From a virus: 43,705 bases of DNA. A program made the position numbers and the translations under genes. The notes beneath the pieces are model-generated. The model was not told the origin of the DNA, did not search any database, and saw only the letters and a list, made by a program, of their open reading frames with translations. Where the stretch lies: positions 1 through 43,705 of IMG/VR virus record IMGVR_UViG_3300009515_000003. One strand, written 5' to 3'. Shown one piece after another: positions 4,780 through 28,356 of this stretch (position 1 is the first letter of the stretch; the number at the start of each line of letters is the position of its first letter).

Positions 4780-4860
4780 TACTGCCAAGATTAACGGTAG
4801 GGGGCCGAATATTTTCATTGAGTAGAAATCATAATAACAACCATTAGAAAACTACCTCTA

Positions 4861-5184
4861 ATGATGAAACAAATATTGCTAGCTATTCTAATAGCAGGAA
4901 TGTTTTCTATGGGAGTCGTTAATGCAGACAAAGAAACCTTCGTACAGATAGAATTTACTTCAACACTATCTCACAGTGAAGATCTAGTGTGTGGAGTATT
5001 CGGTAGTCTAGCATTTGATTACAAAACCCCTGACAAGAAAGGCAAAGTCAAGATTAACGTAACAAACCTAGGGGATGATTTAGAGGCCTTTTGTTATGAC
5101 AATGAAATTCTAGTGACTGAATTTATCCAAGTCAAAGAAGGAAAGACTACCAAGGTAAAACTAATCCACGACCCCACCATCTAA
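4861..5184 (+). CDS. Secreted small protein
   Basis: A 107-residue protein with a clear Sec signal peptide: MMKQ, a hydrophobic core to about residue 20, then the likely cleavage site VNA-DK. The mature part of about 85 residues is beta-rich with two cysteines that could form a disulfide. It would be exported to the cell surface or exterior of the host; its role there is unknown. Start at 4861 or 4864. It is followed directly by a T8 tract. Confidence 0.7.
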   Translation: MMKQILLAILIAGMFSMGVVNADKETFVQIEFTSTLSHSEDLVCGVFGSLAFDYKTPDKKGKVKINVTNLGDDLEAFCYDNEILVTEFIQVKEGKTTKVKLIHDPTI

Positions 5185-5192
5185 TTTTTTTT
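5185..5192 (+). terminator. T8 terminator after secreted-protein gene
   Basis: A run of eight Ts directly after the stop codon, without a strong hairpin, as is usual for archaeal intrinsic termination. Confidence 0.5.
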
Positions 5193-5272
5193 ATTGATTC
5201 GTTACAGTACTTATTAACAAATTACGTTAAAGTTATTAACATTAGAACCATATTCTATACTGAAGACTAGCG

Positions 5273-5827
5273 ATGGCCCGTAAAGAGAATATCCAGGTAA
5301 GACCAGGAGAGTTAACAGCTGATGAGAAACTAATCCTAATGGCTGATATGATTTACACATCTGCCGAGGAGAAAGTATTCTACGTCAATCGTAAGAAAAT
5401 GTACCTAACACCAGGAACTACGGAAGTAGATCCTAAATGGGCCAAAGTCTCAATGAAGGTATCCACATTTTACAAGAAACTAGCAGAAATCAAGGAAAAA
5501 ACCACTGAACGAGTCTTCTTCATCGCTAAAGATTATCTCCCTAACATGCTTGATCAGTACGAGAAATTACAGGCCCTCGAACAAGGAAAGCTAGAAGTGA
5601 TGGAGATTGTACGTAGCAAGCAAAAGTATTCAGAATACAATAGAATCGGTGATAGTGTAATTGCGATGCAACCTTATTTATCAGCATGGCGTGAAGCAAT
5701 CAAAGATGAAGTCGAAGACATGGGAGGTGTCGTAGTCAGTGAAACAGCAGATAATAGTAAATCCAAGAAAGCACTTACGAAAGCTAGCGATTCAAAAAGA
5801 GAACGAGTACTGGCAAAAACATCCTGA
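5273..5827 (+). CDS. Putative small terminase subunit
   Basis: A 184-residue helical, charged protein directly upstream of the terminase ATPase and overlapping it by 89 bases. By position and size it is a candidate DNA-recognition (TerS) subunit that would choose viral DNA for packaging. I see no clear helix-turn-helix motif, so the call rests on context. ATG 5273 follows GACTAGCG, like the GACTAGC before ATG 16479. Its own 3' end carries the ribosome-binding site of the next gene. Confidence 0.45.
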   Translation: MARKENIQVRPGELTADEKLILMADMIYTSAEEKVFYVNRKKMYLTPGTTEVDPKWAKVSMKVSTFYKKLAEIKEKTTERVFFIAKDYLPNMLDQYEKLQALEQGKLEVMEIVRSKQKYSEYNRIGDSVIAMQPYLSAWREAIKDEVEDMGGVVVSETADNSKSKKALTKASDSKRERVLAKTS

Positions 5828-6773
5828 AAAGGAAAGGCCTGTAGAGCTTGAGCATAAATTCATTCCAGCTTTATTTTATTGTGGTTGGCTACCTGATTCA
5901 TCGAAGAAAGACAAGAAGATAAAGAAAGATGTTGAATCATGTCATCCGTACTGTTGTTTCAATCATCTCGTAGGCCTACCAACTATCAAGTACGAAGATG
6001 AATTTGGAGTTGTAACGGGAGAGTCTGGAGGTGTACCACTTCATCCATACGAACAACAAATTTTACAGAACTACGAGGAAAATAATTACTATGCACTAAA
6101 CAAATGTCGAGGAGCTGGAGCTTCTGAACTGTTAACGATTCGTTGGATGTTATTCAAGTATTGCACAACTAGAATTAAAAACAGACTATGCATGATCGTA
6201 GGAGGTATCAACGAGAAAGAGGCCGTTGAATATCTAACCAGGATGAAGGAACTAGCTGATAAAATTCCATTCATGTATCGTGTGGCCCCAAAGTCAGACA
6301 CTCCAAATGTAATCTATCTAAAGCTTGGAATCATTCGAGCAACACCAGCTAACCCTCAAGCAGTAAGATCTTATCAGAACGTGGGCGATGTATTGCTAGA
6401 GGAATCTGCCTTTTGGAAATTAATCGATGACTCTCCAATTCTAAAGTCTGCCGAACCACATGTTATCAAGTCATCAGCTCACATCGGGGCCATCAGTACA
6501 CCAAATGGACAAGCAGGATTTTTCTGGACGAAGATATTCAATCCTGAAGTGAAAACGAAATACTTCAAGCATGTTTTGAATTGGCGAGAGGTCGTAGCTA
6601 ATGTTCCATCGGTAATTAGTGAGGCCGAGGTAATCAAGCTCCAGGAAGAAGATCCTAGTACTTACGAGCAAGAGCTTAACAATCAATTCCTACTATCGGA
6701 GAACAGGGCCTTCGGTGACTTTGACGTTGCAGACTTTGAGCCAATTGATTTCGATAAAGATGCGTTTGAATGA
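5739..6773 (+). CDS. terL: Terminase large subunit, ATPase part
   Basis: A 344-residue packaging motor ATPase without the nuclease half. Visible motifs are a terminase-type Walker A (NKCRGAGASE, residues 121-130, Lys at the front of the loop), Walker B (DVLLEES, 217-223) and coupling motif STP (253-255). A Cys/His cluster (CHPYCC) lies near residues 68-73. The protein ends where the linker to an RNase H-like domain would begin, and that domain is encoded at 10219-10956. The GTG 5739 start is supported by GGAGGT at 5723-5728, and the frame has no later usable start before the conserved region. Confidence 0.88.
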   Translation: MKQQIIVNPRKHLRKLAIQKENEYWQKHPEKERPVELEHKFIPALFYCGWLPDSSKKDKKIKKDVESCHPYCCFNHLVGLPTIKYEDEFGVVTGESGGVPLHPYEQQILQNYEENNYYALNKCRGAGASELLTIRWMLFKYCTTRIKNRLCMIVGGINEKEAVEYLTRMKELADKIPFMYRVAPKSDTPNVIYLKLGIIRATPANPQAVRSYQNVGDVLLEESAFWKLIDDSPILKSAEPHVIKSSAHIGAISTPNGQAGFFWTKIFNPEVKTKYFKHVLNWREVVANVPSVISEAEVIKLQEEDPSTYEQELNNQFLLSENRAFGDFDVADFEPIDFDKDAFE

Positions 6774-7231
6774 GTAGAAATGTTATATTGAACCAATCAA
6801 ATTTTACTGATATGACCACAATTTCAAAAGATGAATTTGATAAAACAATGGCCCAATTACAGAAACTAGGCATCGTAAATAGTCCAGGCCCTCAACTATG
6901 GGAGTTAACAAAAAAATTTATGGATACTAGATTTGCCGAAGCTGTCAAACTAATGAGGGCCGAACAAGAACCAAAAGGAAAATTAACTGAAGATTTGGCC
7001 GATGAAGTAGGAGCTAGATTATTACGTGAAGCTACAATTGTCACTATCGTAAATTTTGCTGATGCTGTTCCTGAAAAGGAATTAGTAATGATGGCAGGGG
7101 TAATAGAAGCTATGCAAGATCAATGTGAAAGATCAACGATACTACCTAAAGGGGCCTTTGATAAATTAACTCAAGAAGAATTTGATTCGATAAAAACTAT
7201 TGATGACGTGGATAGGTTGTTAAAGAAATGA
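6770..7231 (+). CDS. Hypothetical helical protein inside the split terminase locus
   Basis: A 153-residue, mostly helical, acidic protein with no cysteine motif. It starts in an ATGA overlap with the terminase ATPase gene (a second ATG lies at 6812). No family recognised. Its tight coupling to the ATPase gene suggests co-expression with packaging proteins. Confidence 0.65.
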   Translation: MSRNVILNQSNFTDMTTISKDEFDKTMAQLQKLGIVNSPGPQLWELTKKFMDTRFAEAVKLMRAEQEPKGKLTEDLADEVGARLLREATIVTIVNFADAVPEKELVMMAGVIEAMQDQCERSTILPKGAFDKLTQEEFDSIKTIDDVDRLLKK

Positions 7232-7404
7232 AAGCTAAACAAGTCTGGGTAGTATTTTATGATGACCGTTCAGGCATTGACAAAATTTTTCTAACAAAAA
7301 AAGAAGGTGATCTTTACAAGGCCTGGAGCAATTGTACTGAAGAACCTGTATTGTTCGAGATTGATGAATCGTACTCTAAAATTATGGGAGGAGCTGGAAT
7401 TTGA
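7228..7404 (+). CDS. Small hypothetical protein
   Basis: A 58-residue protein with a beta-rich start (KQVWVVFYDDR). Joined by ATGA to the preceding gene and by TTGA to the next. Function unknown. Confidence 0.6.
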   Translation: MKAKQVWVVFYDDRSGIDKIFLTKKEGDLYKAWSNCTEEPVLFEIDESYSKIMGGAGI

Positions 7405-7619
7405 AACTAATTTTGTTATTGATTCTATTTGCTCTCATCGTGAGTATTCCGTTATCAGATGTAGATGCTAAAAAAGAAAAGGCCGATAAGAAATCCAGTG
7501 AAAGTAAATCTAAAGACAAAAAACAAAGTGAACCAACACCAGGGCCAATCGTAATTAGTAAAAGCATTGTTATCTCGTTGCATGAATCTCTATCAATTAG
7601 GGGGGCTTTATCGGTATGA
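7401..7619 (+). CDS. Small secreted or membrane-anchored protein
   Basis: A 72-residue protein with an N-terminal hydrophobic segment (residues 3-18) and a likely signal cleavage site DVDA-KK, followed by a Lys/Ser-rich stretch and a short hydrophobic end. The TTG start lies in a TTGA overlap after GGAGGAGC. Exported product of unknown role. Confidence 0.55.
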   Translation: MKLILLLILFALIVSIPLSDVDAKKEKADKKSSESKSKDKKQSEPTPGPIVISKSIVISLHESLSIRGALSV

Positions 7620-7747
7620 TGTGTACTGAATGTGATGGATTTAATGTTCAATCGTGGACTCTAATGTTAGAGCATTACAAACAATATCATCCAGACGTAA
7701 AGAATCCAGAAAAATTTTTCACTAAAGAAGCTCGGAAAAAGAAATGA
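7616..7747 (+). CDS. C2H2-like zinc-finger peptide
   Basis: A 43-residue protein. Two cysteines (CTEC) and two histidines (near residues 20 and 25) form a compact C2H2-like finger, followed by a basic tail. ATGA overlaps on both sides. Confidence 0.6.
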   Translation: MMCTECDGFNVQSWTLMLEHYKQYHPDVKNPEKFFTKEARKKK

Positions 7748-8154
7748 TAGAGCTTAGCAAAAATGATATCGAAACAGTAGGATATCACATGCCGTATGAA
7801 GAAGTATCAGAACTAGCTAAGAATGTCTTGATAATCATTTCAAATTTGTATCGTGGCCTACACAATGCACCTTACAGGTTTCTCGATACATTTCCATTGA
7901 AAGAAACATTTTACATTCCATTTGAACTAAAGGGAACGTTAGCAACTTTTGATTTTGATACACTGACAAGACTAGTATTTTTGGCCCATGATCTAGCTGT
8001 TAGAGTAGAGATTCAATCTACGAGAAAACACTGTACGTTAATCTACTTTCATCAAAGGACTCACAATAATATCAAAGATTTCAAATCTACAGAAAATCAT
8101 CCAACGTTAGAACAAGCTGTCAAGTGGTGGAGAAAACATCATGAATCACGATAA
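7744..8154 (+). CDS. Hypothetical protein
   Basis: A 136-residue mixed alpha/beta protein with no recognised motif. It starts in an ATGA overlap and its 3' end overlaps the next gene by 14 bases. One of the larger genes in the segment between the terminase halves. Confidence 0.65.
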   Translation: MIELSKNDIETVGYHMPYEEVSELAKNVLIIISNLYRGLHNAPYRFLDTFPLKETFYIPFELKGTLATFDFDTLTRLVFLAHDLAVRVEIQSTRKHCTLIYFHQRTHNNIKDFKSTENHPTLEQAVKWWRKHHESR

Positions 8155-8347
8155 GTTCTATTACACATTTCTTGATCCTAGAATTACAAAGCCACAAAAA
8201 TTTACTGATTGCGATTGCAAGATAATTTCAGTTGAAAATGGAAAGTGTCTCGTTGAGGGCTGTGAATCACATAAACTATCGATAACTCGTGGAACCATCA
8301 AATACATTTCACTAGGGCCAGCTGTACCAAAGGAGATTTTAGAATGA
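8141..8347 (+). CDS. Small hypothetical protein with Cys/His residues
   Basis: A 68-residue protein with cysteines in DCDCK and near GKCLVEGC, followed by a histidine; a metal site is possible. Ends in an ATGA overlap with the next gene. Confidence 0.55.
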   Translation: MNHDKFYYTFLDPRITKPQKFTDCDCKIISVENGKCLVEGCESHKLSITRGTIKYISLGPAVPKEILE

Positions 8348-8439
8348 GAGGTATCTGTCATAACTGTTTCAAAACAAATGTAGATATCGAAGTTATAAAA
8401 GGCCTCATTAGATGCAAGGACTGTAAAAATGAAACTTGA
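8344..8439 (+). CDS. 31-residue zinc ribbon
   Basis: A minimal zinc ribbon: CHNC at residues 5-8 and CKDC at 24-27, with almost nothing else. Too short for most gene finders, but ATGA-coupled upstream and overlapping the next gene by 11 bases. Confidence 0.55.
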   Translation: MRGICHNCFKTNVDIEVIKGLIRCKDCKNET

Positions 8440-8623
8440 ATTACGAGAACATACAAACATCGCTGAACTAGTTTTTGCTCATGACGATATCGAATTTGTT
8501 GCAGAACTAAAAAACAAGATTGAGGCATCAATTCAAATAGTAAAATGTAATGAATGTCATAAAGACATGATCAAAAATTCCACTACTCACAAAACTTGTT
8601 GGAGATGTAAAACAAAAAATTGA
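8429..8623 (+). CDS. Zinc-ribbon protein
   Basis: A 64-residue protein with an acidic helical first half and a C-terminal CNEC...CWRC knuckle pair (residues 40-60). Ends in a TTGA overlap with the next gene. Confidence 0.6.
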   Translation: MKLELREHTNIAELVFAHDDIEFVAELKNKIEASIQIVKCNECHKDMIKNSTTHKTCWRCKTKN

Positions 8624-8751
8624 GTGCTTTAGATATTCCTGGTTATGCAGAGATGGTTGAAGTCATCGGTAATAAAATCGCTAAAGAATATGAGAAACGA
8701 ATCAAGCTGTTATTCAATGAAATAGATTTTTGGGAGTCAATCAATGGCTAA
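8620..8751 (+). CDS. Small helical protein, TTG start
   Basis: A 43-residue helical protein. It starts at TTG inside a TTGA overlap and ends 8 bases within the next gene. No family recognised. Confidence 0.5.
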   Translation: MSALDIPGYAEMVEVIGNKIAKEYEKRIKLLFNEIDFWESING

Positions 8752-8995
8752 AAGAAAATACTTTGCAATAATGTGTACTGCGAAAGACGGGAAAAAGTTT
8801 GCTTTACGTGACATTAGATTTACTGTATCAGAAGGATTCATTGAGGCCCGTGCTGAAATATCAGGGAATCAAAGTTACGGTGAACCATTCTTAGCTGAAC
8901 TAACCAACGTTACCAGGAATCTATTTGAAACAATATTTGCAAAGTACGGATTTATCGAACTAGAGGAGGAATACAATGAAGCAAATCCAAATTGA
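8744..8995 (+). CDS. Hypothetical protein
   Basis: An 83-residue alpha/beta protein with a basic N-terminus and acidic C-terminus; no recognised motif. Overlaps both neighbours. Its 3' end carries the AGGAGG site for the next gene. Confidence 0.6.
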   Translation: MAKRKYFAIMCTAKDGKKFALRDIRFTVSEGFIEARAEISGNQSYGEPFLAELTNVTRNLFETIFAKYGFIELEEEYNEANPN

Positions 8996-9116
8996 GAGAC
9001 TAAAAATAATTGGCTGTCCTCGTTGTGACAGAATCTTTTTAGACCACCAATCGTTAATTCTACACATGGGCCGAGCTGGTGACTTGAATCATAGGAAAAA
9101 ACATTCGAGGCTATGA
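8976..9116 (+). CDS. C2H2 zinc-finger peptide
   Basis: A 46-residue protein with CPRC (residues 14-17) and histidines in the second half, giving a C2H2-like finger, with a basic tail. The AGGAGG site 6 bases upstream strongly supports ATG 8976. Confidence 0.65.
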   Translation: MKQIQIERLKIIGCPRCDRIFLDHQSLILHMGRAGDLNHRKKHSRL

Positions 9117-9117
9117 G

Positions 9118-9393
9118 ATGGAAAAAATTATCATTTACAAAAAGCACCCTTTTGATGCAGAAGAACCAACGGAGTTAGGGCCTGGAGTTGCTTGTTATTT
9201 ATGGAAAGGCCCGTCAGAAAAAACATTAACTATAGGCTGTCCGAAGTGTGGTTTAGTTCATGCATTGATAGATCACGACATTGAATGGCATGATGAATTA
9301 ACGGTATCAGTAAAACCTTCTATTAGATGTGGAAACGATAACTGCGATGCTCATTTTTATATCACGGAGAATGTAATTAACTATGTCATCTGA
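9118..9393 (+). CDS. Zinc-ribbon protein
   Basis: A 91-residue protein with CPKC near residue 41 and CGNDNC near residue 71, bracketing a beta-rich segment. A zinc-ribbon fold is likely; role unknown. Starts one base after the previous stop. Confidence 0.6.
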   Translation: MEKIIIYKKHPFDAEEPTELGPGVACYLWKGPSEKTLTIGCPKCGLVHALIDHDIEWHDELTVSVKPSIRCGNDNCDAHFYITENVINYVI

Positions 9394-9637
9394 TAAAGTA
9401 ATTTCAAAAGAGGAGATGCAAGAGATTATTGCAAAGCCTAAAGTCGTAGTACCAAAATTTGAATCTGCAAAGATAACGGCAAAGATTAGATTCATCGGCC
9501 CTGATGGAATCATGAGAAAGTTTGATGAATCACACATCGTAGCTATGGCCCTGGAAGATCCTAAAGTAAAGGGGAAAATCTGGAGACTAGGAATCGATGA
9601 TGAAACTAGAGAATCTGTTCCAACGGTGAAGAAATGA
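9383..9637 (+). CDS. Hypothetical protein
   Basis: An 84-residue basic alpha/beta protein without cysteines; no family recognised. It overlaps the previous gene by 11 bases and the next by an ATGA. Confidence 0.6.
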   Translation: MSSDKVISKEEMQEIIAKPKVVVPKFESAKITAKIRFIGPDGIMRKFDESHIVAMALEDPKVKGKIWRLGIDDETRESVPTVKK

Positions 9638-9789
9638 AAGACAAAGGATCTAATGTTTACAAAGCTTATTGCATAGTCTGTGATTTTACATCTAATGACA
9701 AAAAGGTTTTCGAAGCTCATTTTGATACAGACTTTCATCGTGAAGGTGTAATGAAAAGACACGAGACAATGAAATCATTATTGAAATAA
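9634..9789 (+). CDS. C2H2 zinc-finger protein
   Basis: A 51-residue protein. CIVC (residues 13-16) followed by histidines near residues 29 and 35 fits a single C2H2 finger, and the tail is basic. Joined to the next gene by TAATG. Confidence 0.6.
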   Translation: MKDKGSNVYKAYCIVCDFTSNDKKVFEAHFDTDFHREGVMKRHETMKSLLK

Positions 9790-9896
9790 TGGCCAAAACA
9801 AAAAAGAAAATCAAACGTGAAGAAAAAAGAACTGATCGTAAAGAATTGAATAGACTAATGAAGCAGTACGAGAATAAGGATTTTAGAAATGAGTGA
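9789..9896 (+). CDS. Small basic peptide
   Basis: A 35-residue peptide, about half Lys, Arg or Glu, predicted helical. TAATG overlap upstream; the end overlaps the next gene by 8 bases. Possibly nucleic-acid binding. Confidence 0.5.
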   Translation: MAKTKKKIKREEKRTDRKELNRLMKQYENKDFRNE

Positions 9897-10029
9897 AAAA
9901 TACATTCCTCCGATGATTGATGAGGGCAATTGTTCTATCGGTTTTGGATTGGCTCATAAATTTATCGTGTACGACTGGATTATGAAATGTGGTTTTTGTG
10001 GAAAAAGAAAATGGTTGGGGCTTTTGTAA
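9889..10029 (+). CDS. Small CxxC protein
   Basis: A 46-residue protein with a CGFC pair near its C-terminus. Overlaps on both sides (TAATG downstream) support it as a gene. Function unknown. Confidence 0.5.
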   Translation: MSEKYIPPMIDEGNCSIGFGLAHKFIVYDWIMKCGFCGKRKWLGLL

Positions 10030-10226
10030 TGTTAACTGAACGAGATAGAAAAATAATAGAATCTGGAGAATACGAAGATGGTGTTTGTGTTGGCTGTGGA
10101 AACACTATCGAAGGGTTATCAGCTTCAGATATTACAGTTTATTTTGATGAAACAAAATCCACTAAAAAAGAACTTTGTAGAATATGCACGATGAAAATTT
10201 GTGAGGGGAAATTAAAAGATGGTTGA
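10029..10226 (+). CDS. Zinc-ribbon protein before terminase nuclease
   Basis: A 65-residue protein with CVGC (residues 20-23) and CRICTMKIC near residue 50. ATG 10029 (TAATG overlap) is preferred over an upstream in-frame ATG at 9987, which lies inside the previous gene. It overlaps the terminase nuclease gene by 8 bases, so the two are probably translated together. Confidence 0.65.
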   Translation: MLTERDRKIIESGEYEDGVCVGCGNTIEGLSASDITVYFDETKSTKKELCRICTMKICEGKLKDG

Positions 10227-10956
10227 CAATCTAACTTATCTCATCGGTAGTGCTGATCCTGGAGGCCTACGAGATGCATTTGCTTTCGTTCTTCTAAAGT
10301 ACGATAAAACTGATAATGTCATCTACGTATTGGGGGCCAAGGGATGGAAATTCAAATCAGGCCAAATAGAATATCCAGAAGTTGAGGAGTACGTGGCCAA
10401 CATCTTTACACAATATAACCTGGACTTTATGGTAATTGAGAAAAATGCTTCAGGTGTCCACGTCATTCAATCGATGCAGAGAAAGTTTCACATGCCTATC
10501 AAATCCGTTACAACATCAAACAACATCAAGACCGACAAAGTAATTCGTGCAGGAAAAACAATGGATAAGACGGAGATGGTAGGATGGATTAACAAGAAAC
10601 GATTAGAAGGCAAAATTAAATTCCCACGAAAAAAAACTCCTGGAATACTCACACTGGAGAATCAGCTAAACTCATTCATCAAAAAGGCCACGGCCTCACG
10701 TCAAATCACTTATTCAGCTGAAGGAGAGGAGCACGATGATTTTGTTATGGCCTTCATGGTTAACCTATTCTATATTCGTAGATGGATCATGAAGGATTTT
10801 GGTATAGTGAAACGAAGGGTTTTGTCAACAAAAAGCGATAGCAAAACATCTATTGATCTTGGTAGTGGGGTTCCCAATGGAGCAATCGTTACAAGCTCAA
10901 ACATTGAATACTTTTCAGGCATATCAGACAATCCCAGGAGATATCGATTAAGTTGA
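10219..10956 (+). CDS. terL: Terminase large subunit, nuclease part
   Basis: A 245-residue RNase H-fold nuclease matching the C-terminal half of a large terminase. The expected metal-binding acids are visible: D13 in GSADPGG, E74 in MVIEKNASG, and the HDD at residues 172-174. It would cut viral DNA at the start and end of packaging. No ATPase motifs are present; these are on the separate product of 5739-6773. It must therefore act as a second subunit, unless the two halves are joined by an unseen mechanism. Confidence 0.85.
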   Translation: MVDNLTYLIGSADPGGLRDAFAFVLLKYDKTDNVIYVLGAKGWKFKSGQIEYPEVEEYVANIFTQYNLDFMVIEKNASGVHVIQSMQRKFHMPIKSVTTSNNIKTDKVIRAGKTMDKTEMVGWINKKRLEGKIKFPRKKTPGILTLENQLNSFIKKATASRQITYSAEGEEHDDFVMAFMVNLFYIRRWIMKDFGIVKRRVLSTKSDSKTSIDLGSGVPNGAIVTSSNIEYFSGISDNPRRYRLS

Positions 10957-11051
10957 ATAAAACTACGATGTGTACTGTTAACTCTTGTCGAGAGGTTTTT
11001 GGTACGAAGAAAGAAGCAAAAGAGCACAAGCTCAAAGATCATTCAAACTAA
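10953..11051 (+). CDS. Small C2H2-like zinc-finger peptide
   Basis: A 32-residue peptide from TTG 10953 (TTGA overlap), or 27 residues from ATG 10968. Cysteines in MCTVNSC and histidines near its end make a C2H2-like finger. Last gene of the packaging operon. Confidence 0.5.
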   Translation: MNKTTMCTVNSCREVFGTKKEAKEHKLKDHSN

Positions 11052-11052
11052 A

Positions 11053-11079
11053 CTTTAAAGGCTAGGAATCGAATCTAAA
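11053..11079 (+). promoter_or_regulatory. Virion-gene promoter (portal)
   Basis: CTTTAAA (11053-11059) lies 24-30 bases before ATG 11083, followed at fixed spacing by AGGAATCGAATCTAAA (11064-11079). The same box and 16-base element occur before the tail-tube gene at 29185-29211. Probably a late promoter with leaderless initiation. Confidence 0.7.
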
Positions 11080-11082
11080 ATA

Positions 11083-12426
11083 ATGGGTCGTAAGGCAAAA
11101 AATTATCACGGGGCCACCAAGCTAGCTCAATCCAGTTTTACTCCTCAATTTTTCAACAATCAATACAACGATACAGACTATGATACTTTTGAAGACCAAT
11201 GGGCCAATACCGTAGCTGGCACAGCTATCGATACTAAAGTAGAGTTTACCATCGGTGAAGGTGTACGACCTAAATTTAATCTCAAAGATAAATCTCTCAA
11301 AGGAGATGCAAAACAAAGAGTCCTGGACAAGTACGATGAACATATTGAGGCCCTGGTAGAGATTGACGAGAAACCCCACATTAGATTAAATGATCACATT
11401 GACGATTTACAAAGAAACGCTTTAGTTTTTGGTAGAAGTTGTTTAGCATTTGAGCCCGACTGGAGAAACATAACAGCACTCAAACCAATTCATCCTCGTG
11501 ACTTGGGCCGTGTCTTTGTTCATCAATTAGATTGGTCTTTGTCATCGGTACATGCATTTCAGAAACGAGAACTAATCAAATCTGAAGACATGATTTACTT
11601 GGTTAACTTTGAAAACTCACCACGTAGAAGATCAATGCATTACGGATTTTCAGATATTCAAAGAGTCGTTGGACAATCACAAGCTATGAGAAGAATCATG
11701 GAGTTCGATGTTGTTGAAATTGTTCAAAGTCTGTGGGCGAAGTGGGCCTTGTTAACTGTTGATCAAGAAGGAATGACAGAAGGTGAAAAGAAAACTGATT
11801 TAGGAATTATTCGTGACGGACTAAAAGCAGGAGCCTTTAACATCATCAACGCAAAGAAAGATGAAATTAATTTCTTCCCTCTCGATGCAAGTGCTAACAC
11901 TGGAGACTTGATGTCGATAGCTGACAAGATGGAGAAAATGATCATCGGTAATTTCAAAGTACCAGCTCCATTACTTGGACGTGAAGAAGAAGCTAACATG
12001 GCAACGTTGTTAGGAAAAATTAGATTATTCATCGCAGGGCCAATCAAACAGCAAAGAAGATGGTTAGAGAAGACATTGAAACGTCAATGGTACGAAAGAA
12101 ATTTGCAGACTCTAAGTGAAGGCAAAACAATTTTAGAACATGCAGTACTTGAAGTAGAGTTTCAACCAATCATCATCGAATCATGGATTGATAACATCGA
12201 TGCACTAAACACATTGAAATCTGTAGTACCTGGAATACCTGACGAAGAAATATTGAAGCTTGCACATCTTGAAGACTTGACGGATAAAATCAAAGAGATG
12301 AAAGACAACGGAGGAAACAACATCATGAGAGATCCTGGAGTAATGCAAGTAGTAGAAGATAGAACATCGATTCCAGACTTGAGAGCAAAAGCAAAGGAGA
12401 AAAAATTAATTGCCAAACAACAATAA
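11083..12426 (+). CDS. Portal protein
   Basis: A 447-residue protein of portal size and composition. The dodecameric portal forms the DNA gate of the head and docks the terminase. The core around residues 60-330 contains the pattern seen in HK97-type portals: a stem/crown segment after a region with HPRDLGRVF, and the VPAPLLGREEEANMATLL segment near residues 292-309, which resembles the conserved region before the C-terminal helices. It follows the terminase genes and precedes the protease, the usual head order. A shared late promoter drives it. Confidence 0.85.
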   Translation: MGRKAKNYHGATKLAQSSFTPQFFNNQYNDTDYDTFEDQWANTVAGTAIDTKVEFTIGEGVRPKFNLKDKSLKGDAKQRVLDKYDEHIEALVEIDEKPHIRLNDHIDDLQRNALVFGRSCLAFEPDWRNITALKPIHPRDLGRVFVHQLDWSLSSVHAFQKRELIKSEDMIYLVNFENSPRRRSMHYGFSDIQRVVGQSQAMRRIMEFDVVEIVQSLWAKWALLTVDQEGMTEGEKKTDLGIIRDGLKAGAFNIINAKKDEINFFPLDASANTGDLMSIADKMEKMIIGNFKVPAPLLGREEEANMATLLGKIRLFIAGPIKQQRRWLEKTLKRQWYERNLQTLSEGKTILEHAVLEVEFQPIIIESWIDNIDALNTLKSVVPGIPDEEILKLAHLEDLTDKIKEMKDNGGNNIMRDPGVMQVVEDRTSIPDLRAKAKEKKLIAKQQ

Positions 12427-13684
12427 ATCAGCAGAAGTAGTTCAAGAATCTCAAAACAATCTTACGAGAACTGAATTAATGAAAGAGCCACGAGCTTACG
12501 ATGTTGTTGAAAATTTTAAAGGTGAAGATGGATTCTACATCAAAGCTTTCTTCGCAGATTCTACTTTTAATTTGAATCGTTGGGGTGTAACTAAAGAAGC
12601 ACTCAAACGAGATATGAAAACTGCATTAGATACAAGATTCCCAGGAGGAAAGACAGCTCCGTTTATCATAATGGATTCATTCGGCCATCCTAATCCAGAC
12701 CCAACACAAGGGGAGGACATGATCACAATGCAAGAACGTTGGAGAGTTGGAGATATTATCGAAGCTGGTTTTGATGAAAAAACACAACGAGCTTACACTG
12801 TAGCAAAAATATTCGATCCTATTGCAATCAAGATGTTCCAGGACAACCAAGTTAATTTCGTAAGTCCATCGATGAGGGCCACTGAAGAAATGCAATTGTC
12901 AGACGGTAGAGTGGTAATTACAAAATTTTTAGTAAATCACAATGCAGGTGTTAAGAAACCAGCTTTTGGAAATGTCAAGGCCCAAATCAGGGGTCGATGT
13001 ACTGGAGATGCTAAAACTTGTTTGGCCCATCTAGCTAACGTTTCAGCCTCCGATGATACCCAGGCTACCACATGTACGAAGAAACCAGGGGGCCTATCTT
13101 GTGTTGAGATCCCTAACGTAGAGGTCAAGGATAACTCACAAGAAGCTAAACAAGGTGACAACTCATCTAATCAGGAATCTTTAAAGACTCGAAATGATTC
13201 AAGTAAGTTAATAATGTCAAGCAACGATGACGACAAAAAAACAATTGAACGCTTAGAAAAAGTAGCTAAGCAAGCACAGGAAGAAATCAAGAAAAAAGAT
13301 GACGAGTTAAATGAAATGAAGGCCCAGAAAAAAGCCAACGAAGAAACTCTCATGAATGAAAAGAAAAAACTTGATGAACTAACTGCAAACTTCGAAGCTT
13401 CTCAAAAGAAGCCACTTGTAGAGAGAATCGTTCAAGCTTCTATCAAACTCGAACTAGTCACCGAAGACAATAAGCAAGCAAAGGCTGATGAACTAATGAA
13501 GGAATCCGTTTCTGCATTAGAATCAATCGATGCTACTTATCAGGCTATGGTCGGCAAATTTGAGAATTTGAAGAACAGTACCCCAACGCAAAACGTTAGG
13601 TACACGAACCAATATCAAGCAAGTGAAGAAGACAACAAGAAAGAATATAGTTTCTTGAACACTATTAGGAGCAAGATGGAATAA
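12410..13684 (+). CDS. Capsid maturation protease fused to scaffold-like coiled coil
   Basis: A 424-residue protein. The N-terminal 170 residues fit a prohead-protease fold, with candidate catalytic H93 (FGHPNPD) and S152 (NFVSPSM). Residues about 195-230 contain five cysteines in an unusual insert. Residues 270-345 form a long charged coiled coil, as expected of a scaffold. The protease would remove the scaffold during head maturation. The TTG 12410 start follows AAGGAG and overlaps the portal gene by 17 bases. The catalytic residues are inferred from position, not tested. Confidence 0.7.
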   Translation: MPNNNKSAEVVQESQNNLTRTELMKEPRAYDVVENFKGEDGFYIKAFFADSTFNLNRWGVTKEALKRDMKTALDTRFPGGKTAPFIIMDSFGHPNPDPTQGEDMITMQERWRVGDIIEAGFDEKTQRAYTVAKIFDPIAIKMFQDNQVNFVSPSMRATEEMQLSDGRVVITKFLVNHNAGVKKPAFGNVKAQIRGRCTGDAKTCLAHLANVSASDDTQATTCTKKPGGLSCVEIPNVEVKDNSQEAKQGDNSSNQESLKTRNDSSKLIMSSNDDDKKTIERLEKVAKQAQEEIKKKDDELNEMKAQKKANEETLMNEKKKLDELTANFEASQKKPLVERIVQASIKLELVTEDNKQAKADELMKESVSALESIDATYQAMVGKFENLKNSTPTQNVRYTNQYQASEEDNKKEYSFLNTIRSKME

Positions 13685-14193
13685 TGTCTGAAGTCTTAGA
13701 AACTACAGGCCTTAAAGCTGGACAACTCGTTTATCCTGATGGAAACATCACGATTAGACGTGGAGTCAAAGCAAGTACATCTTTGGTCGTAGGTGATCCA
13801 ATTACCTTCGATGCCAATGGATTCATGCTAAAAGCATCCGATACTGTAGGAGGAAACTCTGAAGGCCTCGGTGTTTGTAGAGAAACCGTTGATAATTCTA
13901 GTGGTGGTGATGGAGATCTTTCAGCACAAGCAGTTTTAGCTCCTACATTTGTCGGATTCGTAATGGGTGGTGTCGTTCCTCCATTCCAAAAAGTGAAACT
14001 TGATGCAACTTTCAAAGCCGTAGCTAATAGTGCTCCAGCTAACGCAACTACACCTACAGCAGGTGAAGTTGACGCAGTTAGAGATTACGTTGAGCTTAAC
14101 TTTGGTCGTTACTTCGGTCATCACAAAGAGGAAAAAGAACCTACTGCATCAGCTGACACAGAAATCGGAGTGATCCGATTGGGAGCAGATTAG
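13684..14193 (+). CDS. Head decoration protein
   Basis: A 169-residue, glycine- and valine-rich beta protein. Size, composition and place between protease and major capsid protein match DUF2190-like or lambda gpD-like decoration proteins, which stabilise the capsid. It starts in a TAATG overlap with the protease gene. Its TAG stop is in the same frame as, and 3 bases before, the TTG of the capsid gene. Confidence 0.65.
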   Translation: MSEVLETTGLKAGQLVYPDGNITIRRGVKASTSLVVGDPITFDANGFMLKASDTVGGNSEGLGVCRETVDNSSGGDGDLSAQAVLAPTFVGFVMGGVVPPFQKVKLDATFKAVANSAPANATTPTAGEVDAVRDYVELNFGRYFGHHKEEKEPTASADTEIGVIRLGAD

Positions 14194-14196
14194 AAA

Positions 14197-15318
14197 TTGC
14201 CTCAAATAGAAGCAGTAACTTTCGTTCCTTACACCAACAAATTCTACGTTGGTGCTGTTGGCGAAAACAGTGAGTCCTTTAAAGGACGTGAAGAACAAAA
14301 CTTCGAACCAATTGCCATACTTCATCCTAATAAGTTGAAGATGATGTCAGATGGTAGAGGAGGTTTGGTCGAGGCCCCAGGTTACGATAGACAAGGAGCA
14401 GTTGAATACGTCAATCACGAAATGTTAAGAAAAGCAGACAGATACGTACAAGCTCACGGACATCATTACAATGCAGAGGTAGATAGCACTTCACTCGCTA
14501 ATATCACACGTGTTGAATTGATGACAGAAATCCGAAATGAGATGTATAAAGATGTCTTCTTGATTAACGGTGTTGACCGTATCCCTGTACCTAAATTGAA
14601 ATTGGATTACGATATCCAGTTGCACATTAAGACACGAGGAAAGAACGCCTTAGTTCCTAAGAGACAAAAACCACAAGTAGAAGCACCTGAATTTATTCAA
14701 GCTAGCTTCGACCTTGCCAAGTTTGGAAAACTTAGTAGAACAATTGACGTTGCAGATGAAGACGAGTTAACAGCTTTGATTTCTCCATCAGCAAAATCAA
14801 TCAGTGACTTATCACAAGTAATGTCACAGGACGAAAACTCTTTGATCTTAGATGCACTAGATACCTTCGTTACCAAATCAAAAGGTTCTTGGTCTGCGTT
14901 CACAAGTGATCACAACACTAGAAGCCCTCTAGTCGATATTGCTACAGAAAGAAAACGAATCGTGAAGAATCACGGAAGACCTAACATAATTGCTATGAAC
15001 TCAATTTTGTGGGCCACCTTCGTAGGTTCTACATTCGTTAAAGGTCTGGAGCAAGCTTTCGTACAGAAGCAACCAGGTGTATTCACATTCGACAAATTGC
15101 CAGGCTTTACATTCATCATTGATGAAGATATTGCCGATGGTACTGCATATCTCTATGACAGACGAGCCCTAACCTATGGTGAAGGCCCAATGGTCAGTGA
15201 GACTTTCAGAGATCCACAATCTGCCGTAAGTGGTAACGTGATCCGAAAATGGGTTGAGCCTCTAGTTCCTACCAAATTAGCTACCTCCTTTGGTGCTAAG
15301 ATGGACACACTAGCCTAG
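14197..15318 (+). CDS. Major capsid protein (HK97 fold)
   Basis: A 373-residue protein at the expected place for the HK97-fold major capsid protein. An E-loop-like segment lies before residue 150, the central spine and A-domain segments follow, and the C-terminal portion reads TEAVxxGx-like (YGEGPMVSETFRDP) then a beta end. The only in-frame start after the upstream stop is TTG 14197, with GGGAG 11 bases before. A TTG start is unusual for an abundant protein, and the upstream gene lies in the same frame. Confidence 0.8.
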   Translation: MPQIEAVTFVPYTNKFYVGAVGENSESFKGREEQNFEPIAILHPNKLKMMSDGRGGLVEAPGYDRQGAVEYVNHEMLRKADRYVQAHGHHYNAEVDSTSLANITRVELMTEIRNEMYKDVFLINGVDRIPVPKLKLDYDIQLHIKTRGKNALVPKRQKPQVEAPEFIQASFDLAKFGKLSRTIDVADEDELTALISPSAKSISDLSQVMSQDENSLILDALDTFVTKSKGSWSAFTSDHNTRSPLVDIATERKRIVKNHGRPNIIAMNSILWATFVGSTFVKGLEQAFVQKQPGVFTFDKLPGFTFIIDEDIADGTAYLYDRRALTYGEGPMVSETFRDPQSAVSGNVIRKWVEPLVPTKLATSFGAKMDTLA

Positions 15319-17925: not shown

Positions 17926-18387
17926 TTGGTAGGACAGATCGGTACTTTGACTGGCGTTCCTAGAGGTTGGAGAATCTTTTACGATGACGGTACAAGTTAC
18001 AAATCAACAATGAATACTTTACCAAATCTAAGAGATGAATGGAACAATCAAACCAAAACAGGAATCATCATCGTAGTTGTAATCTATGAAGACAAGTACA
18101 CTACAATCGATGAAGATGGAATAGAAGTAACTAGACACTATCGTAGAATTGTTACTGATAAAAATTGGGTATGGTACAATCCAGTAACTAAACAATATCG
18201 TGGAGGCCAAATAGAACCAACGGGCCCAAGTGGTAACAACAAAAAAGACATGTCAAGCTCAAGACATATCATCGTTGACAATTCAGGAAATGAATTAGAT
18301 GATGTTGAAAATGCAGACATAGCTTTGATTAGAACTAAGTTAGGTAATCTCTATTCCAAACTTACGGAGAATGAAGTATGGACGTAG
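17926..18387 (+). CDS. Hypothetical structural protein, TTG start
   Basis: A 153-residue beta-rich protein rich in Tyr and Trp. TTG 17926 is the first start in this frame after the upstream TGA. It overlaps the 623-residue repeat protein by 10 bases. A role in virion surface assembly is inferred from position only. Confidence 0.45.
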   Translation: MVGQIGTLTGVPRGWRIFYDDGTSYKSTMNTLPNLRDEWNNQTKTGIIIVVVIYEDKYTTIDEDGIEVTRHYRRIVTDKNWVWYNPVTKQYRGGQIEPTGPSGNNKKDMSSSRHIIVDNSGNELDDVENADIALIRTKLGNLYSKLTENEVWT

Positions 18388-20249
18388 AACATGGTAGCTT
18401 CATTAAACAAGCTGGTACGGGAAATCAAACTATCAATTTAGCAAATGGATCACTAACTCCAAAACTTGTCATCTTTCACGGTGATGGATACGGTACTGCA
18501 AATGGAATTGTTAATGATTTCTTTGCACCATTCCGAGGATACATGTCAGCAACAGAGCAAGCTTCATGGTCGGCATCAGTTCAATCAAACAACAAGAACG
18601 GACAATCAGGCCTTAGTAGTGGCTGTATTCTAATTCTAGATGAACATGCATCAACTGAAGCTAAAGCTACATTCGTTTCTTTTTCAGCTGGCCAATTCGT
18701 AATTAATTGGGGTACAAATGCAAATACTACAGCATGCAGAATTTTCTATACCGTAATTGGTGGTACTGGACTAGATAATATCAAAATTGGAACTGTAGCA
18801 CTAAACACGACAACGGGAAACCAGGTCGTAAGTGGAGTTACAGCATTTACCCCAAAGATAGGATTTTTCCATGCAGTAGGAGGCCTAACGACTTTCCCGA
18901 CTGATTCAGTAGGAAATACAGGTTACGGAATGGGAGTAGCTGTATCGTCATCTAAACGGCATAGTCTTTGTGCAGGTGTAAAAGGTGACAAAGGAAAGGC
19001 TATCTTTGATCCTACGAAAGTAATGAACTATCCTCTAGCTAGTGACACGGCCCTAGACATGCAAGCAGACTTTGTTTCAATGGATTCTACAGGATTCACG
19101 ATTAACATTACTGATGCACCAACAACGGCAGACATTTTACTTTATGTTTTGCTCGGTGGAACTAATCTCGTAGCAGATGCAGGAAACATAACTTCACCAG
19201 CTTCTACAGGTACTCAACAAGTCACTACAACGGGCCAACCATCCACACTAGGTATGCTCACGAATCTTGATGTATCGGGGAATAGCTACGGTACACCGAA
19301 TACTAATTGTGCTTTCGGAATGGGAAAGTCAGGTACTCAAAGAGCTACACATGCATGGACAAACCCCGATAACAAATTACCCGAATCATCTACAAGTAAC
19401 GCTTTCATAATTCAAGCTTACTTAGCAGTAGCAACATTGACGGCAAGTACTGAAGATGCCGTGTTTAGTGCATTTGCAAGTACGAGCTTTACTATTAACT
19501 GGACAAAAGTTTCAACCACGGCCTATAGATATGGATGGTTTATCCTGGGGGCCACGGCAGTAACTACAGTTACTAAAAATGTCTCGATGGATGCCAATTT
19601 ACAAGATACATTTACAAAAGCTGTTTCAGTTGATGCCAATTTACAAAAAGCATTTACAAAAGCTGTAACTATCGATGCAGTACTTCTAAAGACTTTAACA
19701 AAGAATGTTTCTATCGATGCACAACTAAACAATGCAGTACAAAAAGACGTAACAATAGATGCAGTATTACTAAAAACCACTACAAAGAATGTCTCAATAG
19801 ATGCACGATTAGTTAATGTAAATTCAAAAACAGTATCTATCGATGCTGTACTAGCTACTACAGTTCAAAAGACTATTACCATTGATGCATTACTCTCTAA
19901 AGCATTTACAAAGAACGTTTCAATGGATGCAAAACTCACGGGCACAGTTACAAAACCCGTGTCAATGGATGCGTTAATTGGTTCTTACAAATTGTCTTCA
20001 GTTAATCTAGGACGTACTAAAGATATTGCAGGAGTTGACTTAGGATTTTGTGATCTTGCATTGTTCAAACAAGACGGGGCCAGTCCTCCAGCTTACACGT
20101 ATATTGCAAAAACTCAAAGTGATGTCAACGGAGACTATGAGTTTACGACAAATGATAACGATGCACTTTATCTAATAACTGCATTAGAGAAATCAGGTAC
20201 TCCGAGAATGGACTGTACGGATAACACCTTACAGCCTGTTTTGGGATAG
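18378..20249 (+). CDS. Virion surface protein with 14-residue repeats
   Basis: A 623-residue protein. Residues 1-395 are Gly/Thr/Ala/Ser-rich beta domains with internal similarity. Residues 399-535 hold ten 14-residue repeats of the form TKxVSxDAxLxxxx. The C-terminal part after about residue 540 (VNGDYEFTTND) resembles a carboxypeptidase-regulatory or Ig-like domain. It shares the repeat with the 2053-residue neighbour. Together they probably form fibres or appendages for host contact. No transmembrane segment or signal peptide is visible, so it is likely an assembled virion part. Confidence 0.6.
   Translation: MDVEHGSFIKQAGTGNQTINLANGSLTPKLVIFHGDGYGTANGIVNDFFAPFRGYMSATEQASWSASVQSNNKNGQSGLSSGCILILDEHASTEAKATFVSFSAGQFVINWGTNANTTACRIFYTVIGGTGLDNIKIGTVALNTTTGNQVVSGVTAFTPKIGFFHAVGGLTTFPTDSVGNTGYGMGVAVSSSKRHSLCAGVKGDKGKAIFDPTKVMNYPLASDTALDMQADFVSMDSTGFTINITDAPTTADILLYVLLGGTNLVADAGNITSPASTGTQQVTTTGQPSTLGMLTNLDVSGNSYGTPNTNCAFGMGKSGTQRATHAWTNPDNKLPESSTSNAFIIQAYLAVATLTASTEDAVFSAFASTSFTINWTKVSTTAYRYGWFILGATAVTTVTKNVSMDANLQDTFTKAVSVDANLQKAFTKAVTIDAVLLKTLTKNVSIDAQLNNAVQKDVTIDAVLLKTTTKNVSIDARLVNVNSKTVSIDAVLATTVQKTITIDALLSKAFTKNVSMDAKLTGTVTKPVSMDALIGSYKLSSVNLGRTKDIAGVDLGFCDLALFKQDGASPPAYTYIAKTQSDVNGDYEFTTNDNDALYLITALEKSGTPRMDCTDNTLQPVLG
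19572..19982 (+). repeat. Ten tandem 42-base repeats
   Basis: Each unit encodes about 14 residues with consensus TKxVSxDAxL plus four variable residues. The amino-acid pattern is conserved while codons vary widely. The same unit is expanded in the next gene. Confidence 0.85.
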
Positions 20250-20257
20250 GAGTTATT

Positions 20258-23200
20258 TTGGCCCTAGTATTTGATGCGATTGATTCGTTAGTTTCAAACG
20301 ATTTACAATCTGGACAATATGGAAACAGATCTATCGTAAGAACAAAAGGAGGAGGAACAAGCTCGTACCTTACAACTGATTCTTTAGTGACATCAAACAA
20401 TAATCCAGGTTTCGCAGATAGAAAAATTGTAAGAACATCTAAAGGAGTACTCTATATCGGTTCGAGAGAACTAACAAGCAACGATGTCAATATTCACAAA
20501 TCAGATGATGATGGAGCTACATGGACACTCTTAGATTCAGCTAACGAGCCAAACTGTGACAAATCAACTGTTTGTTTATCGATTGATAGTAATGATCTGA
20601 TACATGTTGCATTTTATGAAGAAACTGTAGGATTGCGTTATGTAACATTTAGTACGGTGACTGATACTTACGGAACTCCTGAAACTGCACAAGCTGAACT
20701 TGGTACTTTAGTAGAAACAGGATCAAACAGATTCGTTTCATTAGCTCTAGATTCTAACGACAAACCCCATGTAGTTTACACTGATCACAATACAGGATCA
20801 GGTGACGAATGTTACTACACAAACAAAGTATCGGGAAGTTGGTCAACAAAACTTTTGGTAATTGGCGATATTAGTTTGACTTACACACATGGACAGTCTA
20901 TTACATTTAACAACAGTGACATTCCTCAAATCGCATTAATTTGGCATAATGCAACTGATATTGATTCTCTAAGAGTGTATTTGGGAAATCAAAATAGTGC
21001 TACAAGCTTTAGCGAAACAATCCTGGATACTACGACAGCAGTAGATGAGCCTTCGATGGTTGTAACAGATAACAACGATACTATAGTTTCATACACTGAT
21101 TCTAATGATGACGTAATTGCTATTAGACATGTAAATGGAAATACATGGGCCACTTGGGAAACAGCCGTAGTTGTTGATAGTTCTACAGTATTTGCTAACG
21201 CACAACTTACAATCGATGAAGCTGGAGACATTTACATTTTTTCGGCAGACCTCACAGGTAATACAACTAACTATTGGAAATCCACAAATGGGGGAAGAAC
21301 ATTCGGTGCAATTCAAACTGACAACATGGCAGGAATTACCGAAAATAGAAATTACTGTAGATGGCAAAAATACAATCATCATTTTCCTAATCGTATCGAT
21401 TACTTAGCTTATGATACCGTAGCTGATGACATTTACTTCAACATAGTTGAAAATACACTCACAGGAAGATGGCGAAGTACTGACGTAGAAATTAACGGTA
21501 ATGTTCATGGAACTTTCAATAGAGCACTAGTAAGAACATCAAAAGGAGTCATGTATGCACTACTTCATGACTTTATCAACGATGATATTGAAATGCACAA
21601 GTCAACCGATGAAGGTTTTACCTGGACTCATTTAGATGCCACCAATGATCCTACAGTTACGCAATTTGGTAGTTTAGCTATTGATTCTAATGATTTACTT
21701 CACATTACATTTTTGGATAACAATGTTGGCCAAAGATACACTACCTTTTCAACATCTACAGATACATGGTCGGGAACATTCGAAACAATTCTTGCTTCAG
21801 TTGGTTTTTCCAATGTAGGCCAATCTTGTGAAATCTCTATTGATTCCAACGATATTCCTCATATTGCTTTTGGTATTCAAACAGGAGCTTCAGCTACTTC
21901 GATAAGATACAACAATAGGATAGGTGGAACGTGGACATCAAACGTAACAATAGCCTCCTCAACAAGTGACAGATATCAAGCGAGAATTTCAATGAATCAC
22001 GACAACAAACCTTACGTTGTTGTAATTGCAAACAAAACAACTGACGATATCATAGCCTATCAAGGAAATCAAAATGATGCCACAAGCTTTTCATCATTCA
22101 CAGTTTCAACATCTCTTTCTCAAATTGGGGGTGATATGGTAATTAATTCAAGGGGCGATGTTTTTGTTTGTTGGACTAATTCATCAAGTGACTTTATAAT
22201 TAAAAGACATTTGTTTTCTGATGCTTGGTCAACGTGGCAAACTGATGAAACTCTCGATACTGGAATTAATGCAGATAGTAGAACTATGACAATAAACAAT
22301 GAGGGTTTAGTTATTGCTATGACCAATCGTTCACAAATTAGTTATGCATATAGAGAAAATTTGGATGGAGGATGGAGTTTAATTGATACAAGTCACAATC
22401 CTCCAGAAACTAACGTTTATCTTAATAATTTTAGATGGAGTTTTTACAATTATTATTTTCCTAGTCAAGTGGACTATCTTAGAGAAGCTGGATTTGACGG
22501 ACAAGTAGATTATAACAAAATAGTTTTCAACGGTACTGATCTATTGTATTGTGTAGGTCGAAATCCTACAAGTAACCAAGTTGAAACGTGGTACTCTGGA
22601 ACAAATGGTAACACCTGGGAGATACTGGATTCAGCTAACGAGCCTACATGTGACGTTAATAGTGTCTCTTGTTGTATCGATGGAATTGATGATGTGCATA
22701 TTGCTTTTGAAGATGCAGGAGTAGGTACTCGTTACATTAAATTAGATTCTTCAACTCAACTTTACACTACCGTAGAAACAATTCAAGCAGAAGTACAAGA
22801 TCCAGTTTATCAGGGCACGGCAATAGCTTGTGATCATTCTGATATCCCTCATTGTGTTTACAATTTTAAAGATGGAATTATCGGAGATGTCAATTACTCA
22901 AATAGAATCGGGGGCACGTGGAAAGCTGGTGTTCTTGTTCAAACTGTAGGTTCTAATGCAAATTTCCCACAAATAATAATTAACGTTAGCAATATTCCCG
23001 TTCTTTTAGTTCCTCAACAATCAGCAGGATCTACAATTTGGGAAGGAAATCTCAACGATGCAACAAGCTTCACGTCCTTCAACATAGGAAATATGACAAG
23101 TACTTGTATGGTTATGGATTCAATCGGTAACTTTTACACAGCTTCACAACGAGGAACTGCAACAGTTAATGATTTAGAAGTATCTAGACATAATGTAGAA

Positions 23201-27603: not shown

Positions 27604-28356
27604 ATGGATTTCGCATGTGTTCACACGAACAACAAGCAATATTCAATGAAACCTGTTGATCAGGTTAATGCTTCTTCAGTATCGTTTGATGCCGTAGTTA
27701 CTCATTCCACAAGACACGATGAAAGGGCCCTAAATAATCAAGTCTGGGATGACTCTGAAATAATTTACTGGACGATGGAAACTGACTATCCACATATCGA
27801 AGGTAGGAAATTTGAAGAAGAAATGGTGAAATTAGCTTTGTTAGAATCATCGATGGAAACTCCTTTAGTAATTAGAAAAAGAAATAGAAAGTCTGCCGAC
27901 TCACAATTAAAAATTAATTGGTTAGGAAAAAAAGATGAGAGATATTTTACTTCTGAATCCACTTTAGCTTTTGCTTACGGCCCTGGACGTGGTTTAGGTG
28001 GAAATTGTACTATGAACGCTGACGTAGCTTGGGGAATGAAGGATGAGGTAATACCTGGACTAGAATTTGAAGAACGATTTGATAGAAGGGTTCAGTATCA
28101 TGATGCAATCAAACGATACAAAGTCTATGATGCACTTCATACTTTGAAACATGAACTAGGAGGCCACGCTATGGGAATGAGACACATCGAAGGAGCTGAA
28201 AATGCAAAAACATCGATAATGTATCCTTACTACAACGGCAAGAGAAGATTTGGCCCAGCTGACTTAAAATATTTGCATGAATTGTATGGTAAAGCTAGTA
28301 TCAATCACAAGATCAAAGAAATGCTATTACTTAGAATCTTCAAAGGGATAGTCTAA
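27604..28356 (+). CDS. Matrixin-type metalloprotease
   Basis: A 250-residue metzincin. The zinc site HELGGHAMGMRH is at residues 183-194 (His183, Glu184, His188, His194), and a Met-turn follows at SIMYPYY (Met206). An LAFAYGPGRG segment (121-130) followed by a double glycine matches the loop that binds structural zinc and calcium in matrixins, but some ligands there are changed. No signal peptide is visible, so exit would need help, perhaps from the membrane proteins upstream. The likely role is cleavage of surface or S-layer protein for entry or release. Residues 25-30 (SVSFDA) echo the fibre repeat. Confidence 0.85.
   Translation: MDFACVHTNNKQYSMKPVDQVNASSVSFDAVVTHSTRHDERALNNQVWDDSEIIYWTMETDYPHIEGRKFEEEMVKLALLESSMETPLVIRKRNRKSADSQLKINWLGKKDERYFTSESTLAFAYGPGRGLGGNCTMNADVAWGMKDEVIPGLEFEERFDRRVQYHDAIKRYKVYDALHTLKHELGGHAMGMRHIEGAENAKTSIMYPYYNGKRRFGPADLKYLHELYGKASINHKIKEMLLLRIFKGIV

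Follow-up and report, generated by a model that had tools for sequence, protein, structure and literature searches.

The window analysed here, the entire IMG/VR record IMGVR_UViG_3300009515_000003 (43,705 bases, from an uncultured virus), carries two genes on its plus strand that encode the two halves of one large terminase (TerL). The first (5739..6773) begins with GTG, has the Shine-Dalgarno-like sequence GGAGGTG about 10 nt upstream and encodes the ATPase half (344 amino acids, aa). The second (10219..10956) begins with ATG, has GAGGGG about 10 nt upstream and encodes the nuclease half (245 aa), with a predicted RNase H fold. Both open reading frames (ORFs) lie exactly where an earlier reading of this DNA, hereafter the original prediction, had placed them. 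They are 3,445 nt apart, and between them the ORF listing gives a tightly packed insert of 17 small genes (6770..10226) on the same plus strand as both halves, several of them zinc-ribbon-like. The predicted number of small genes was correct, as we counted 15 ORFs with a length of 40 aa or more and two tiny ones, one of 31 aa that is zinc-ribbon-like (8344-8439) and one of 35 aa (9789-9896). We also looked for conserved insert genes common to the window and its relatives and found only weak zinc-ribbon-like similarities.

For the ATPase half, the three predicted motifs are all present on the plus strand and conserved in an alignment of 36 ATPases: the Walker A region NKCRGAGASE (residues 121-130; 6099..6128), Walker B (residues 217-222; 6387..6404) and the STP coupling motif (S253-T254-P255; 6495..6503). 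We found that R124, G127, the catalytic E222, STP and QE311-312 are invariant across the 36 proteins. The P-loop lysine occupies column 122 in the window and in 28 of the 36, and the classical column 128 in the other eight; in lambda gpA, the P-loop lysine is similarly displaced. A Pfam search of the ATPase half gave no family match, and tblastn matched it to TerL of the Nitrososphaera provirus Pro-Nvie1 (3e-10). A profile built from 12 stand-alone ATPases matched residues 136-369 of T4 gp17 (3ezk, 1.4e-19), and the AlphaFold model (predicted local distance difference test, pLDDT, 74.8) has the T4 gp17 ATPase among its best PDB matches (2o0j, E 1.6e-12). The protein therefore has what defines a TerL ATPase, i.e. 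an additional-strand conserved-glutamate (ASCE) P-loop ATPase with Walker A, Walker B with its catalytic glutamate, an S/TTP motif and the TerL fold. From these motifs and the model, it is predicted to be a translocating ATPase with P-loop, Walker B, coupling motif and lid region; the lid region stops just short of the usual linker to the nuclease.

For the nuclease half, the original prediction named D13 (10255..10257), E74 (10438..10440) and H172-D173-D174 (10732..10740), all on the plus strand, as residues of a separate nuclease gene. We found D13 and H172-D173-D174 invariant in 30 homologues, and position 74 is acidic in all, with E in 18 and D in 12. The protein matches Pfam Terminase_6C (2.9e-9) and aligns to positions 547-697 of the 760 in the PHROG TerL family phrog_38, i.e. 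to the C-terminal end only. A profile built from 30 separate nucleases matched the TerL nucleases of G20c and P74-26 (6e-17) and residues 394-568 of T4 gp17 (3ezk, 4.9e-9). Corroborating these matches, the AlphaFold model (pLDDT 77.5) has gp17 (3cpe, E 7.8e-8) and the G20c and P74-26 nucleases among its best structural matches. The protein thus has the RNase H fold and the acidic triad of a TerL nuclease (D13, E/D74 and D173-D174), and it is predicted to cleave DNA.

Since the family profiles and the models match successive parts of T4 gp17, the results support the view that one TerL is encoded here in two parts, an ATPase and a nuclease. This agrees with the original prediction, which had proposed structure prediction of each part as a check; both models match gp17 and TerL folds. 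It had also named outcomes that would speak against it, and neither half belongs to a different family by profile or fold, nor is there a second or complete TerL in the window, where we found a single TerL-ATPase-like ORF and a single TerL-nuclease-like ORF. The window shares its two domains, their genome order, catalytic motifs and folds with T4 gp17 and other Caudoviricetes TerL (Terminase_6C, phrog_38). However, those are single proteins, whereas in the window each domain is a protein of its own, and the two genes are separated by 3.4 kb that contain 17 ORFs. Hence, we describe a split variant and not an ordinary TerL. In the open-access literature we found no paper describing a split TerL, with subscription papers, some on marine thaumarchaeal viruses, outside the scope of the search. 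The arrangement is apparently undescribed, a claim of novelty that we make with moderate strength. An MMP17 protein annotated "terminase, ATPase subunit" was considered as a split case and rejected because one ORF of 415 aa encodes it.

When the window ATPase, nuclease, major capsid protein (MCP) and portal were used as single queries against IMG/VR, there were no matches, and relatives were found only by profiles built from wider alignments. We searched 400 Nitrososphaeria genomes and IMG/VR with the same ATPase profile and called the IMG/VR cases split or fused with a nuclease profile. IMG/VR yielded 63 contigs with a related ATPase, comprising 44 split, 13 fused, four with one long ORF whose match to the nuclease profile stayed below threshold, and two without class. 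The Nitrososphaeria genomes contain ATPase ORFs of only 270-380 aa alongside fused ones, and nine genomes or bins have split pairs (G178, G026, G171, G276, G327, G164, G075, G121 and G293). This search of related viral genomes for fused or split forms, which the original prediction had called for, showed that the two-gene TerL is no isolated case, and the claim that it is unusual had to be corrected, as many uncultured viruses and several Nitrososphaeria genomes or bins have it too. When 300 genomes were sampled across the phylum, almost every further ATPase ORF measured 417-565 aa, as expected of a fused protein. Split genes are therefore found mainly in Nitrososphaeria and the viruses presumed to infect them.

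The spacing of the halves varies among the split IMG/VR contigs. Eight have overlapping or abutting halves, in most the halves are separated by one to three small genes, and ten have a gap of 2.1-7.8 kb (L109, L112, L114, L118, L119, L120, L127, L129, L131 and L155). One group (L099, L102-L108, L110, L113, L115-L117, L122, L124-L126 and L128) has a conserved, coiled-coil-like protein of 62-78 aa between the halves, ME(I/V)(T/S)DLPTLFQ..., for which a Pfam search found no family; a second conserved gene sometimes follows it. Among the genomes, G026 and G171 have adjacent ATPase and nuclease genes, and in G327 the nuclease is 1.36 kb from the ATPase with about six small genes between.

The closest relative is G178:C5 (L062), of the class Nitrososphaeria, with 36% identity to the window ATPase over 275 aa (E 4e-51) and 26% to the nuclease (E 5e-16). 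Its TerL is split like that of the window, but the halves overlap at GTGGTAA in different frames with no intervening genes, and extra residues are inserted in its ATPase around position 290. The closest fused relatives of the window ATPase are Pro-Nvie1, IMG/VR contig L007 and the Nitrososphaeraceae sequence L012, which have the CCFNHxVGLP segment before the ATPase in common with the window. Unlike the window pair, each of these is one protein (456-510 aa) whose nuclease domain is shorter.

We found that the two halves have similar histories. In separate trees, the window and L062 are sisters for the ATPase (support 100/99) and for the nuclease (98/91), and ATPase and nuclease distances correlate (Mantel 0.68 in the thinned set and 0.76 in all, p 0.0005), as joint inheritance would predict. 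By distance alone, the ATPase is nearest to L062 and the nuclease to L098; the mixed origin this raised was dropped because both trees pair the window with L062. If the window is instead placed with the marine set and apart from L062, the nuclease data do not reject the grouping (approximately unbiased test, p-AU 0.14) and the ATPase data do (p-AU 0.0002). A single origin of all split forms was also discarded, as the split label must change seven times or more on the tree of 84 ATPases. Hence, there has been more than one interchange between the split and fused states, with gains and losses not separable on this unrooted tree. In G164:C55 (L045, L078), the ATPase is on the minus strand and a plus-strand nuclease-portal-protease-MCP series lies about 14 kb off, with the nuclease directly before the portal. 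The G164 ATPase falls among those of the fused Pro-Nvie1 type whereas its portal and MCP match the group of the window, which suggests that the ATPase was exchanged.

We considered whether the nuclease could instead be a stand-alone RNase H-fold enzyme, such as a RuvC-like resolvase that trims replicating DNA, with the ATPase packaging alone. RuvC and poxvirus resolvases are indeed among the Foldseek matches of the nuclease model (E ~5e-6), and some related ATPases have no detectable nuclease. However, the top matches are the TerL nucleases 3cpe, 5m1o and 5tge together with Pfam Terminase_6C, the portal gene comes immediately after the nuclease gene, here as in syntenic relatives, and both trees join the window to L062 as its sister. 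Hence, we regard a stand-alone nuclease as unlikely.

Joining of the halves at the RNA level has known precedents. The parts of herpesvirus UL15 lie several kb apart with other genes between them, as in the window; in duck enteritis virus, UL15 has two exons and a 3.5 kb intron containing UL16 and UL17 (PMC3079670). Unlike the window halves, the UL15 parts are spliced into one protein. Similarly, TerL frames are interrupted by introns or inteins in Bastillevirinae phages, whose TerL genes carry introns, and in cyanophage Mic1 (PMC11878797, PMC7156551), but these are restored to one polypeptide, whereas we found no intron or intein in the window. There was no Rfam intron match in 4800-12000, and Pfam detected no intein, split-intein or homing endonuclease domain in either half or in the ten insert genes scanned. 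In addition, each half has a Shine-Dalgarno-like start of its own and a separate stop at the domain border, and the insert genes share the strand of TerL, unlike UL16 and UL17. The halves of L062 and similar relatives overlap, each in another frame, and elsewhere one or many genes separate them; such variable spacing and overlap leave no common intron, and the abutting or overlapping relatives, with their own starts, need none. Hence, an RNA-level join, which the original prediction had named as grounds for abandoning it, is very improbable. A decayed or mis-assembled TerL gene is almost certainly not the explanation, even with damaged members in the wider family, because the same arrangement recurs in dozens of independent assemblies, the motifs of both halves are intact and 17 well-packed genes lie between them.

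Several points weigh against the reading of these genes as a two-gene TerL. Five genomes (G101, G103, G273, G377 and G004) have ATPases with no detectable nuclease anywhere in the genome, so a lone ATPase may have another reason. Shared inheritance may hold for any two genes of one genome and does not imply contact between their products, and a second TerL may lie beyond the window, since the record is from an uncultured virus. The host is assigned through relatives only: this tailed virus probably infects archaea of the ammonia-oxidising type, because its relatives sit in Nitrososphaeria genomes and bins, some of which may hold free virus contigs. Damaged members include G166, with the ATPase in two frames, G293, with the nuclease in two frames, and G276, with a nuclease lacking its N-terminus. 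Given these and the orphan ATPases, a few of the split and fused counts may be off.

Other TerL-like ATPases and nucleases were seen during the searches. Stand-alone TerL-like ATPases without a nuclease nearby occur at L054, L051, L055, L059, L060, L079 and L080, and G103 has two near-identical ATPase copies 6.8 kb apart beside genes for secreted proteins. Another set, L046, L047, L048, L049, L050 and L063 (in the Nitrososphaeria genomes G239, G153, G115, G184, G263 and G384), encodes TerL-like ATPases of 272-300 aa with the common end NLKY-RR, and a PP2C phosphatase gene adjoins the ATPase in both loci read (L046 and L047). These proteins look like a truncated, possibly domesticated terminase ATPase. 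G075 has two nuclease-like ORFs in a row behind its ATPase (L081, 6966-8337), and the second is only weakly similar.

Weighing these results, we think it likely, on the grounds of homology and structural models, that the virus has a working TerL of two polypeptides and that the junction between them is also an insertion site. The 344-aa ATPase would be the pump that drives DNA into the shell, and the 245-aa protein would be a separately made RNase H-fold nuclease for headful or cos cutting. The two proteins would meet in one motor, with the nuclease acting in trans by docking on the ATPase, the portal or both, perhaps at the portal-ATPase interface. It would be switched on only twice, for the first cut in the concatemer at initiation and for the last one at termination. 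The separation at the boundary between the domains would be old, and the junction would later have tolerated insertions, with 17 small genes in the window. In HK97 and phi29, nuclease domain and portal are neighbours, and P22 has a nuclease domain that is weakly active when isolated from its ATPase (PMC7617512). More tentatively, and with the balance of our judgement slightly against it, a ring of ATPase alone may pump, with the nuclease as an exchangeable, possibly sub-stoichiometric, portal-side subunit recruited for the cuts; a covalent link between pump and cutter would then be dispensable in tailed viruses.

TerL is regarded as a universal one-chain hallmark and marker gene of tailed viruses, and surveys that look for full-length TerL will mis-score viruses with a two-gene TerL. 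The arrangement also touches two questions of the packaging field: whether the nuclease tether is needed for translocation, and how cutting is restrained during pumping. Since the natural split lies at the domain border and comes with varied spacings, both questions are directly testable with separately expressed proteins. Its recurrence further shows that a whole cassette of small genes can come to be inserted in the interior of a core gene for morphogenesis.

The genes around the two halves fit a packaging and head module. Directly upstream, and overlapping the start of the ATPase gene, is a candidate small terminase (TerS; 5273..5827, plus strand, 184 aa); it had no match in a Pfam search, and phmmer matched it to its counterpart in L128 (E 9e-6) and similarly in L099, L102, L103, L117 and L125. 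The first gene after the nuclease encodes the portal protein (11083..12426, plus strand). Its Pfam Phage_portal match is weak and below the cut-off (0.021), and phmmer matched it to the genes after the nuclease in L128, L110, L101 and other split-TerL contigs (E down to 4e-100). Three more plus-strand genes follow that have homologues in the same place in split-TerL contigs: a prohead protease/scaffold candidate (12410..13684; E down to 1e-41), a small decoration-like capsid gene (13684..14193; E down to 4e-21) and the MCP candidate (14197..15318; E down to 4e-45, PHROG major head protein 0.019). The TerS-TerL-portal-protease-MCP neighbourhood is thus present with the insert separating the TerL halves, and the order TerS-ATPase, insert, nuclease-portal-protease-capsid was also found where checked in relatives.

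Further downstream, two proteins of 623 aa (18378-20249) and 2053 aa (20258-26419) contain long runs of repeats of about 15 residues of the type TK(N/A/S)VS(I/L)DA(I/L)L... and are probably fibre-like. A 250-aa protein (27604-28356) carries the zinc-protease motif HELGGHAMGMRH and has relatives in the split-TerL contigs L109, L114, L117 and L128.

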